DNA of 64,000 nt from an uncultured Verrucomicrobiales bacterium (GTDB lineage Bacteria; Verrucomicrobiota; Verrucomicrobiia; Verrucomicrobiales; Akkermansiaceae): positions 1 through 64,000 of the forward strand of contig CALGJQ010000012.1 of the NCBI GenBank assembly GCA_937928545.1, read 5' to 3'. A program made the position numbers and the translations under genes. Numbering within the stretch: the stretch's first letter is position 1; every line of letters begins with the position of its first letter. Shown in pieces: positions 11,570 to 24,469 of this stretch. The notes under the pieces are model-generated. The model was given only the letters and a program-made list of their open reading frames with translations, had not been told where the DNA came from and did not search any database.

Positions 11570-14500
11570 ATGTCTGAGAAACGCAAGCCTTACCCCTTCG
11601 ACCTCTTCGAGCCCAAATGGCAATCCCACTGGGCCGAAAACAAAACCTACCGCACCCCCGGTCCTGGTGAGGAAGGCTTCGATGCGTCCAAGCCGAAATA
11701 CTACATTCTCGACATGTTCCCTTACCCCTCCGGGGCCGGCCTTCACGTTGGTCACCCCGAGGGCTACACTGCGACTGATATCATCGGTCGCTACAAGCGC
11801 ATGAACGGTTTCAACGTCCTCCACCCCATGGGCTGGGACGCCTTCGGACTCCCCGCCGAGCAATACGCGATCAAGACCGGAACTCATCCACGGATTACTA
11901 CCGAAGCGAATACGAACAATTTCCGCCGCCAGCTTCAAGAACTCGGCTTCGGCTACGATTGGGATCGCGAGGTCAATACCACCGATCCCAAATACGTTCG
12001 CTGGACTCAGTGGATTTTTCTCCAGCTCTACAATTCTTACTTCTGCGATGAAGACCAAAAAGCCAAGCCTGTCTCCGAGCTTGAGGCCAAAGGTTGGACC
12101 CAAGCGCAAATCGATGACGTCCGCCTCGCCTTCATCCACGAAGCGCCTGTCAACTGGTCTCCTTCAATGGGAACCGTTCTTGCCAACGAGGAAATTGAAG
12201 AATGGAAAGCGAAAGGTGAAACTGTCGAACGCCGACCGCTCCGCCAGTGGATGCTCCGCATCACAAAATACGCCCAGCGCCTCATCGATGAGCTCGAGCC
12301 CCTCGACTGGCCTGAGTCCATCAAAGCCCTCCAGCGAAACTGGATCGGCCGCAGCGAAGGAGCCGAAGTCACCTTCGATGTAGAAGACAATGACGTCACC
12401 GTTTTCACAACGCGCCCCGATACTCTCTTCGGCGCCACTTACATGGTCCTCGCCCCCGAGCACGCGCTCGTCTCCGAGATCACCACCGCTGAAAACAAAG
12501 AAGCCGTCGAAGCTTACATTACGAATTGCGCCAGCAAGTCCGACATGGAACGCGGCCTCGACAAAGACAAAACCGGCGTCGCCACCGGGGCCTTTGCCAC
12601 CAACCCCGTGAACGGCGAAAAGATCCCCGTCTGGATCGCCGACTACGTCATGATGGGCTACGGCAGCGGAGCCATCATGGCTGTGCCGGCGCATGACCAA
12701 AGAGATTTTGAGTTTGCTAAGAAATTCGACATCCCCATCAAGCAAGTCGTCTCAGGGAGCGCGGGCGTCCCGCCCGTATCTCCGCCCTCAACCGCCGAAG
12801 TCCTCGCTTCTACCAAAACTCACCGTCGTCGCCTCCCGCATTGGCAACGCCCCGAGACCTCTCTCTTCCTCACTTGGCGTCTCGCCGACTCCCTCCCGGA
12901 GGAGAAGCTCGACAAATACCTTTCTGAAAAAGAAGCCTGGCTCGCAAACCACCCCGAGCCCAGATCTTCCGAGGACGAGGAAGAATTTCACAAACTCTTC
13001 TCAGATAAAATCGACAAATGGCTCGATGCTGGTTCCGGTGAATGTCTTCTCCGCGACCCCAAGATTGCCAAGATCGTCAGCGATGCCCTCCACCACTTCG
13101 ATGGCGAACGTTACGCCTTGGACAGTTTCGTTGTCATGCCGAACCACGTGCATGTTCTCCTGCAACTCGCGCCAGATCATAAGTTGGAGGATGTTCTTCA
13201 TTCGTGGAAAAGCTTCACTGCGAAGAAGATCAACGAGGCGCTTGGGCGGGAAGGGATGCTTTGGCAGCCAGAGTATTTCGACCGCATGATTCGTGATGAA
13301 GTTCATCTCGAAAATGTAAGGAAGTATATTGAGAACAATCCTAAGCATGGAAAGCTCGTCGAAGGAGAATACGTGCTCTTTACTTCTGAAACGGGCGGGA
13401 CGCCCGCGCTCCTCGAAGCCACCTCCGGTTCTGGGGTTGCCGTAAATTCAGGTTTCCTCGACGGCCTCAAAACCAAGGACGCCAAAAAGAAGATCATTCA
13501 TTGGCTCGTCGAAAATGGAAAAGGCGAAAAGAAAATCCAATTCAAACTCCGCGACTGGCTCTTCTCGCGCCAGCGTTATTGGGGCGAGCCCTTCCCGCTT
13601 CTTTGGGATAAGGAGACCGGCCAGCACTCCGCCGTTCCAGAATCTGAGCTCCCTCTTCTCCAACCTGAGATGGAGGACTTCAAGCCCACCGGCGACCCCC
13701 GTGGACCCCTCATCAATTGTACCGACTGGATCAACTACTCAGACAAACTCCAGCGCGAAACCAACACGATGCCGCAATGGGCTGGCTCTTGTTGGTATTA
13801 CCTCCGCTACTGCGACCCTAACAATACTGATCACTTCATCTCCCCTGAGAACGAAGACTACTGGGGGAATGAAGACGGCTTCGTCGACTTCTACGTCGGC
13901 GGAAAAGAGCACGCTGTTCTCCATCTCCTTTACTCTCGCTTCTGGCACAAAGTCCTCAACGACCTCGGTCATCTGAAATCGAAGGAGCCCTTCAAAAAAT
14001 ACTTCGCCCCCGGCCTCATCATGGGGGAGGACGGGCAAAAAATGTCCAAGTCCCTGGGTAACGTCGTTAACCCCGATGACGTCGTGGAAGGTTACGGCGC
14101 GGACTCCCTCCGCCTCTACGAAATGTTCATGGGTCCTCTCGATCAGGACAAACCCTGGGCCATGAAGGGCGTCGAAGGCGTTCACCGCTTCCTTGCCAAA
14201 GTCTGGCGTGTCGCTTGCTCAGAAGATACCGAAGGGAATTGGCAACTCAGCGGAAAAATCGTCGACGGTCAAAACCATGACCTCGCCAAAGTCACCCACC
14301 AAACGATCAAGCGTGTCGAAGAGGCCATCAACTCTCTTCGCTTCAACACTGCGATCAGTGCGATGATGGAATGCACCAATGCCTACACCGCAGCCAAGGA
14401 AGTCCCACGCGATCTTTTCCTCACCTTCCTGAAGCTCCTCAGCCCCTTCGCTCCGCATCTTGCTGAAGAGATCAACTCGGTCCTCGGCGAAAGTGAATTG

Positions 14501-14740
14501 GTGAGCGAGCAAACTTGGCCTGAGCTCGATGAAAGCCTCCTCGTTGAATCTGAGATTCAACTCATCGTGCAAGTGAACGGCAAACTCCGTGCACGCATCC
14601 AAGTGCCTGCTGACGTCTCAAAAGAAGACGCCGAAAAGGCCGCGCTTGCTGAGGAAAATGTGCAGAGTTTCATCGATGGGAAAACCGTTCGCAAAGTCAT
14701 CGTGGTTCCCGGGAAGTTGGTGAACATCGTCGCGAATTAG
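11570..14740 (+). CDS. leuS: Leucyl-tRNA synthetase carrying an in-frame RAYT domain
   Basis: Class Ia synthetase charging tRNA-Leu in the cytoplasm. HVGH (residues 59-62) and KMSKS (824-828) are intact, and the editing-domain segment with [12 protein letters not shown] (near 380-390) is present. The chain is 1056 aa against ~840-870 in the family. The excess is one block of 219 codons (~396-615) between KQVVS and [18 protein letters not shown], inside the C-terminal part of the CP1 editing domain. That block is a Y1-type transposase (next entries) bounded by inverted REP sequences and keeps the reading frame. Without it the enzyme would be 837 aa, a normal length. Either the fused protein still folds, as with an intein-like surface insertion, or the insertion is very recent. 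No start codon lets the block be read alone in this frame. Confidence 0.97.
12756..12777 (+). repeat. Left REP repeat of the RAYT unit
   Basis: A 22-base sequence (core agcgcgggcgtcccgcccgt at 12758-12777), identical to the reverse complement of 13391-13412. It contains its own hairpin: CGGGCG and CGCCCG around a 3-base loop. It is translated as part of leuS (SAGVPPV). Confidence 0.93.
13391..13412 (+). repeat. Right REP repeat of the RAYT unit
   Basis: Perfect inverted copy of the left repeat (core acgggcgggacgcccgcgct at 13391-13410), translated as [11 protein letters not shown] hairpins beside the gene are the expected substrates of RAYT enzymes. Confidence 0.93.
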
Positions 14741-14801: not shown

Positions 14802-14846
14802 TTTTCCTTGAATATTGAAATCATTGGTTTCAATATTCAAGGAAAA
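14802..14846. repeat. Perfect 19-bp palindromic hairpin
   Basis: Arms 14802-14820 and 14828-14846 (ttttccttgaatattgaaa and its exact complement) around a 7-base loop. It lies between leuS and the DUF4143 ATPase. The core CTTGAATATTG returns in the next hairpin. It may serve as a terminator for leuS or as an operator. Confidence 0.9.
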
Positions 14847-23812: not shown

Positions 23813-24469
23813 TTATGCACGCTTGCGGCGGCCGATGAGGGCAAGTCCGCTAAGTCCAAGAAGAAGAGCGCTTGAAGGCTCAGGAACTTGTGCGGTAGAG
23901 ATCTTACTAATTCCCCAGTTGTCGGAACCACCAGAGTTAGACTCGAGTTTGAAGCCGGTGAAAGAACCACCGTCAACTCCGATAAAGAAGGACTGGTTAG
24001 CTCCTGGTGAAGTCCAAAGGCCATCAACAGCTTCGTCGTGGTCAAAGAGAACAGTTCCGTCGCTAGCGGTCACCTTCAGAGAAGATGGGTTTGTGCCATC
24101 AGCACCCCAGTCGGAAATATCCATGATGAAACCAGTCTGAGCGGATGCAAAGACAAAATCCATTGTCCGAGTTGTGGTTCCAGTGCTTGTGTTGTTTGCC
24201 GCGAGGAAGAGATAACCGCTACCAGAAGTGTCTGGATCAGGAGCACCAGCGATCGTAGCTCCCTGAGGAATCTGGAAGGTTGGTCCATCAGTAACGTAGT
24301 TGATGGTGGAACCGGCGCTTGTAACATAGCCAGAGGCGATTGCGCCTCCTGGATCTGCGTTGAAGTCGTCGATTGTTCCTGTTCCATAACCGGTCGGGTT
24401 GAGAACAGTTTGTCCGCTAGCGAGGCTAACGAGCGCGAGAGACGCGATTGTAAGGGTCGTTTTTTTCAT
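23813..24469 (-). CDS. PEP-CTERM secreted protein
   Basis: A 218-aa protein. ATG 24469 starts a signal peptide (MKKTTLTIASLALVSLASG); the frame continues upstream to 24496 without support. The body opens TVLNPTGYGTGTIDDFNAD and contains MDFVFASAQTGFIMDISDWGADG, LKVTASDGTVLFDHDEAVDG and GGSFTGFKLESNSGGSDN. The tail is VPEPSSALLLGLSGLALI plus GRRKRA. It is closely similar to the next gene (24780) along the whole length, so the pair arose by recent duplication. It has its own hairpin terminator. Confidence 0.88.
   Translation of the reverse strand: MKKTTLTIASLALVSLASGQTVLNPTGYGTGTIDDFNADPGGAIASGYVTSAGSTINYVTDGPTFQIPQGATIAGAPDPDTSGSGYLFLAANNTSTGTTTRTMDFVFASAQTGFIMDISDWGADGTNPSSLKVTASDGTVLFDHDEAVDGLWTSPGANQSFFIGVDGGSFTGFKLESNSGGSDNWGISKISTAQVPEPSSALLLGLSGLALIGRRKRA

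Follow-up and report, generated by a model that had tools for sequence, protein, structure and literature searches.

A REP-flanked RAYT transposase in frame within a bacterial leucyl-tRNA synthetase gene, and related insertions in other host genes

Repetitive extragenic palindromic (REP) sequences and the REP-associated tyrosine transposases (RAYTs, or TnpA-REP) are known from REPtrons, in which inverted REPs flank a transposase with a Y1/HUH domain and further REP copies lie elsewhere in the genome (PMC3733652, PMC6006769). In the available parts of these sources, RAYTs are described as separate genes. Here we describe a block that shares all three features but is internal to a host protein: it lies within leuS, the gene for leucyl-tRNA synthetase (LeuRS), of an uncultured Verrucomicrobiales bacterium (assembly GCA_937928545.1, contig CALGJQ010000012.1; the window is the whole stretch analysed, its first 64,000 nucleotides), and has neither a start codon for a whole RAYT nor a stop.

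Palindromes translated within genes are already known, both as in-frame REPs and as Rickettsia palindromic elements. As far as the available parts of the sources go, REPs can code for 20-82 aa within conserved proteins, REP-bearing genes include tRNA synthetases and uvrA of O. terrae (Verrucomicrobia), and recB has a REP in two species, at roughly matching positions (PMC3733652); the available part of that account of in-gene REPs makes no mention of a RAYT inside a gene. REPs have also been seen in frame inside tnpAREP genes, and a few unexpectedly long TnpA proteins were excluded as fusions or annotation errors (PMC6006769, in part). The Rickettsia elements are likewise selfish, palindromic and in frame in unrelated metabolic genes (PMC10969869, in part, which cites Ogata 2000 and 2002 for them). 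The latter measure ~150 bp and encode a short peptide, and in-gene REPs lack a transposase, whereas the leuS element, at 657 bp, carries a whole one. Whole in-frame RAYTs within host proteins were unreported in the literature searched, mostly at the level of titles and abstracts.

Inteins with homing endonucleases lie in frame at fixed sites in conserved hosts, are patchily distributed, and have trees that depart from those of their hosts. The leuS RAYT shows the same homing-element traits, being in frame at a fixed site, with a patchy distribution and a tree that conflicts with its host's. Unlike an intein, it has no splicing domain in Pfam, encodes a single-strand HUH transposase, and is expected to remain fused in the product. 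This likeness to inteins without splicing had been proposed in a sequence-only reading of the window, and the analysis supports it.

The RAYT block in leuS

The leuS gene is a single open frame of 1056 codons (11570-14740, forward strand) without internal stops, in whose product Pfam places LeuRS domains on both sides of a Y1_Tnp match at residues 514-590 (E 5.3e-12; score 46 bits, cut-off 23). The RAYT block covers codons ~396-615, and the frame is open across both REP ends. The inverted arms (12756-12780 and 13388-13412) are 25 nt long and 96% complementary, their outer 22 nt perfectly so, and span 657 nt with the block between them; stops interrupt five of the block's six frames, the translated one being the exception. 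The sequence-only reading was thus correct about an in-frame RAYT in a 657-bp block with perfect 22-bp inverted REP repeats. Its statement that the block has no in-frame start codon needs correcting: ATG, GTG or TTG occurs at codons 517, 523, 527, 539, 563, 573 and 602, but none lies within codons 396-516, so that no start in the block would yield a whole RAYT.

The residues that the same reading had numbered as H526, H528 and Tyr586 proved right by alignment (positions 110, 112 and 170, plus 416), and all three are invariant in 18 of 18 aligned leuS RAYTs; Tyr586 is a candidate for the catalytic residue, a role which we take to be that known for the family. The RAYT region matches TnpArep 4er8 weakly (E 9e-4). 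Pfam finds no Hint or intein family in the leuS product, and a His-Asn, which we take to be the relevant splicing motif, is absent by eye from the right end of the block.

On the LeuRS of T. thermophilus (1h3n), the insertion site falls in the editing domain, between about residues 363 and 376. A point to be corrected in the sequence-only reading is that the loop between the two flanking LeuRS motifs is naturally variable. Most close relatives have QPxGDxDWQG(Y/F/C)T there, so it is this loop that has been replaced or split by the insert. Relatives without the insert have open frames (stop to stop) of mostly 839-880 aa, some reaching 937, in agreement with the ~840 aa anticipated.

An AlphaFold model of the whole fusion rendered LeuRS poorly (mean pLDDT 62.8), and was superseded by one restricted to the editing domain and insert and built on a deeper alignment, of 70 sequences (mean pLDDT 83.6, pTM 0.59). 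The latter predicts two confident parts, the RAYT being a separate one, joined by low-confidence stretches at the REP-encoded ends (398-423 and 608-615), and its editing part superposes on 4k47 at 1.2 A across 136 columns. The model fixes no mutual placement for the editing and RAYT domains. Structure searches returned LeuRS chains or editing domains alone among the matches listed, so that the assignment of the RAYT fold rests on sequence.

Recurrence in leuS and in other host genes

The insertion is not confined to one strain. This loop of the editing domain of LeuRS holds a RAYT in 18 genomes, including that of the window (G000), and in the Akkermansiaceae metagenome-assembled genome (MAG) RU_1_3 (L173), which makes 18 assemblies besides our own. 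Among 57 relatives, some with leuS interrupted by contig ends, full-length fusions occur in G018, G026 and G057; G051 is ambiguous, an unfused N half of leuS lying at the end of one contig and a C half with a RAYT on a second, and was excluded from fusion counts. When 288 genomes of the order were searched with our RAYT, 12 of the 14 strongest matches other than itself, among those listed, lay in leuS. Most members of the genus are without the insertion.

A search with the C-terminal part of LeuRS counted a single leuS in each of the 18 fusion genomes, which are 86-98% complete (two rows in G097 are one gene, and the gene of G297 is split across two contigs). No second leuS, which the sequence-only reading had left as a possibility, was found in our own genome, a draft of 75 contigs that is 92% complete. 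Since independent assemblies of other species agree, chance or misassembly at the junctions is rejected. One fusion frame, L114 (G124:C9), extends to 2175 codons, with no Pfam domain in its last ~1100.

The leuS case is one among many in-frame RAYT insertions at fixed sites in several host genes. RAYTs of the same group lie in frame within carB, metH, adenosine deaminase, GT4 glycosyltransferase, NUDIX and hsdR genes, as well as in those for an ADH-GFO/IDH/MocA protein and a Clp ATPase, and our own genome has a second one in the activation domain of metH (G000:C30, L046). In carB the insertion point corresponds to about residues 477-483 of the E. coli protein, and in metH to about residues 1089-1094 of 9ssp. 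Junction peptides, compared by eye, indicate one site per host in carB, GT4, NUDIX and ADH-GFO and in four of five hsdR copies, and are less clear for L062 and L063. Four copies (L047, L100, L108 and L115) in frames of 361-496 aa with an unrecognised host were classed as free.

A scan of GTDB, of which the best 80 loci were considered, gave 36 in which the open frame continues for 80 aa or more on each side of the RAYT, 8 with a single long flank and 36 with neither; at least six of the two-sided loci are the same records as genomes already surveyed, and some of their frames reach a contig end. Hosts here include hsdR, type IIG restriction enzymes, SNF2 helicases, class I synthetases, alaS, carB, xseA, poly(A)/CCA polymerase, uxaC and a FabA-like protein, several of them by a one-sided Pfam match, and Pfam named no host family for L181 and L197. 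By record title the loci come from Verrucomicrobiota, Planctomycetota, Bacteroidota, Chloroflexales, Gallionellaceae, Methylobacter and Methylomirabilis, with misbinning possible because most records are MAGs. Two of the deaminase host frames (L105 and L224) also match Cas_NE0113 and, from this pair of domains, look like CRISPR-associated effectors, presumably Cad1-like. With Cas_NE0113 proteins, hsdR and type IIG enzymes all serving as hosts, defence genes are frequent among them.

Trees, REP copies and selection

In a tree of 67 RAYTs, one group (support 0.93) takes in 17 of the 18 leuS copies; carB and NUDIX copies are mixed, and adenosine deaminase (ADA), ADH-GFO and most GT4 copies form groups of their own. 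RAYTs group by host gene beyond chance: the 45 in-gene copies require 11 changes of host label, against a mean of 25.6 after shuffling (none of 2000 shuffles as low; 65 of the 67 RAYTs used, two identical rows having been dropped). Approximately unbiased (AU) tests on 18 taxa, G069 excluded, show mutual rejection of the leuS and RAYT trees (9e-86 and 1e-31), and the pairs G264+G127 and G282+G289 are well-supported conflicts, found on the RAYT tree only. Adjoining its own element, G127 has what is apparently the right end of one of the G289/G282 type. Strict vertical inheritance of the leuS RAYT is ruled out by the AU tests, and a single origin inside the genus was likewise set aside, G000/G018 and G026 not being sisters on the leuS tree, though support there is weak.

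Empty leuS loops were also searched for palindromes. Seven of 48 could not be parsed and were dropped; among the remaining 41, four (G006, G033, G035 and G010) hold a palindrome that none of 200 codon shuffles reached, the next-best loop having p 0.035. Those of G033 and G035 are similar to element ends, that of G006 less so, and they may be scars of lost elements.

REP copies partly track RAYT lineage. Counted with up to two mismatches in 16 members of the genus, the leuS REP has 26, 8 and 2 copies in the three that carry the element (G000, G018 and G026, respectively) and none in nine of the 13 that do not, and a reversed-pattern control has none in 16 of 16. The REP of the G269 element has 26 copies in G269, 13 in G297, some of them in a tandem array next to leuS, and 11 in G168, three genomes whose RAYTs group together, and none in G264, G127, G282 and G289, whose leuS RAYTs belong to other lineages. 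REPs or REPINs of the G000 family are in frame at two places in the pyruvate carboxylase gene of our genome (G000:C11 near 23035, L157, and 23905-24018, L159), and such a REP is in frame in the alanyl-tRNA synthetase gene of G018 (G018:C42:68811-68868, L147). Another (L165), upstream of HMG-CoA reductase in the open frame, is perhaps not translated and was left out of the in-frame counts. Two tandem arrays were observed: four perfect leuS-type REPs in direct repeat at a spacing of 106 nt (G000:C5:32955-33293), and six REP copies 30 nt apart adjoining the C-terminal half of leuS in G297 (G297:C196:7141-7314).

In-gene RAYTs are under purifying selection. The ratio of nonsynonymous to synonymous change (pN/pS) is 0.085-0.26 for the RAYT and 0.064-0.24 for the host in 13 in-gene pairs, and 0.17-0.34 for free RAYTs in four pairs, ratios that are rough because pS is high in several pairs (to 0.87, near saturation). 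A pseudogene is excluded by these values. In-gene elements have both arms within the frame, except L127, whose frame leaves its contig; in free copies with a clear repeat, a stop precedes the end of the right arm. Across the 18 leuS elements, ends differ between elements and are concordant within each, the two arms of one element being 94.5% alike against 70% for arms of different elements (matched by none of 10000 permutations). Inverted repeats are weak or unclear in ADA-type elements, L060 and L062. The tetranucleotide GTAG, which tags the REP foot in RAYT systems, is absent from the leuS arms in the arm list, read by eye, and present at the arm start of some NUDIX, ADH-GFO and Clp elements.

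Explanations for the embedded element

We consider it probable that the block is an autonomous REP-RAYT element embedded in a protein, where it forms a domain of LeuRS in the same frame; it is distributed much as inteins are, yet gives no sign of splicing. Having no start or stop of its own and residing in the variable loop of the editing domain, such an element would be transcribed and translated with leuS, and synthetase and transposase would fold side by side in one protein. The cell would then make a fusion of ~118 kDa, in which the synthetase would tolerate the insert and work. As LeuRS is essential, the cell would not survive a stop or frameshift within the transposase, and the host gene would thus supply both expression and protection from decay. 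The transposase is predicted to be active, its RAYT domain acting on the hairpin REP ends of its own element and, in trans, on REP and REPIN copies elsewhere. Elements would pass between leuS genes, perhaps by homing, and between host genes, into the same loop, with transposition, homing-like copying or recombination as the route; occasional loss would leave a palindrome and a site open to reoccupation.

Several observations weigh against this explanation. Alongside 16-17 leuS copies, the leuS RAYT group takes in four from hsdR and five free ones, and the leuS RAYT of G069 belongs to a different lineage, beside a metH copy; a single clade for all leuS RAYTs therefore fails, and the leuS loop has been invaded at least twice. 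The leuS REP has 1-3 copies in four genus members without the element, its copies in G026 are solely the two ends of the element itself, and in G015 two such copies flank a free RAYT, so that this REP is not exclusive to the leuS element. The G269 REP occurs 10 times in G304 (nine with two mismatches) and five times in G254, both without that leuS-RAYT lineage, and other counts (three in G292, one in G279, none in G239, G266 and G305) also depart from a clean match with lineage. Low pN/pS could stem in part from a need not to disturb LeuRS folding. The contrast between arms within and between leuS elements is overstated by a biased test, since arms were chosen as the best inverted match.

Some of these points suit a reading in which only survivors are seen: RAYTs would land anywhere, in-frame stopless landings in tolerant loops would persist, and later homologous recombination of leuS segments between species would spread them, the RAYT having no site preference and needing no present activity. 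All surviving copies being in frame and in tolerated loops, and the lack of extra REP copies in G026, would follow, and recombination can produce tree conflict. Yet catalytic residues and ends are retained, REP numbers tend to track RAYT lineage, and leuS genes only about 60-80% identical at the protein level across genera would have to recombine, and we regard this reading as rather unlikely, if deserving of some weight. A domesticated RAYT, serving LeuRS as an accessory (e.g., in nucleic-acid handling) and inherited with leuS apart from some losses, would fit purifying selection equal to that on LeuRS and the presence of the domain in many species; it is improbable in view of the conflict between the leuS and RAYT trees, the lack of the insert in most genus members, the occurrence of the same domain in unrelated enzymes, and the inverted REP ends that have been kept. 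The fragmentation of the draft would allow for an assembly artefact, or the block might be a decaying relic, both scarcely credible given that independent assemblies of other species concur, pN/pS is far below 1 and the catalytic residues are invariant.

If the block is indeed an embedded REP-RAYT element, a whole transposon can last within an essential enzyme without being spliced out, securing its expression and escaping decay with none of the chemistry of inteins or introns. The insertions would offer a natural catalogue of loops in large enzymes that tolerate insertion, a hint at the origin of in-frame REP decorations, and a system for studying target choice by single-strand transposases and for asking if essentiality serves as an addiction device. 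More tentatively, and with somewhat more doubt than confidence, they may represent an unrecognised class of autonomous, stopless REP-RAYT transposons in many bacterial phyla, living as unspliced domains in fixed loops of essential and defence proteins, protected by the essentiality of the host, scattering in-frame REPs and REPINs in trans, and passing like inteins through a cycle of invasion, scar and reinvasion.

Table 1. Features of the leuS locus, in window coordinates
Feature	Position	Strand	Basis
leuS frame, LeuRS with embedded RAYT, 1056 aa	11570..14740	+	ORF, Pfam
LeuRS editing (CP1) domain before the insert, codons 256-397	12335..12760	+	Pfam PF13603; 1h3n alignment
Left REP arm, outer end of the element, a hairpin by itself	12756..12780	+	Repeat analysis
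Low-confidence linker, codons 398-423, partly REP-encoded	12761..12838	+	AlphaFold pLDDT < 50
RAYT coding region, codons 413-606	12806..13387	+	Pfam, alignment, structure-family match
HUH motif H526-V-H528	13145..13153	+	Invariant in 18/18 leuS RAYTs
Candidate catalytic Tyr586	13325..13327	+	Invariant in 18/18; role presumed from the family
Right REP arm, inverse of the left	13388..13412	+	Repeat analysis
Low-confidence linker, codons 608-615	13391..13414	+	AlphaFold
Remaining LeuRS 3' of the insert, codons 617-1056	13418..14737	+	Pfam; 1h3n alignment

Just 3' of leuS, at 14802-14846 of the window, inspection by eye showed an AT-rich inverted repeat, perfect over 19 nt and with a loop of 7 nt, perhaps a terminator or another small palindrome.
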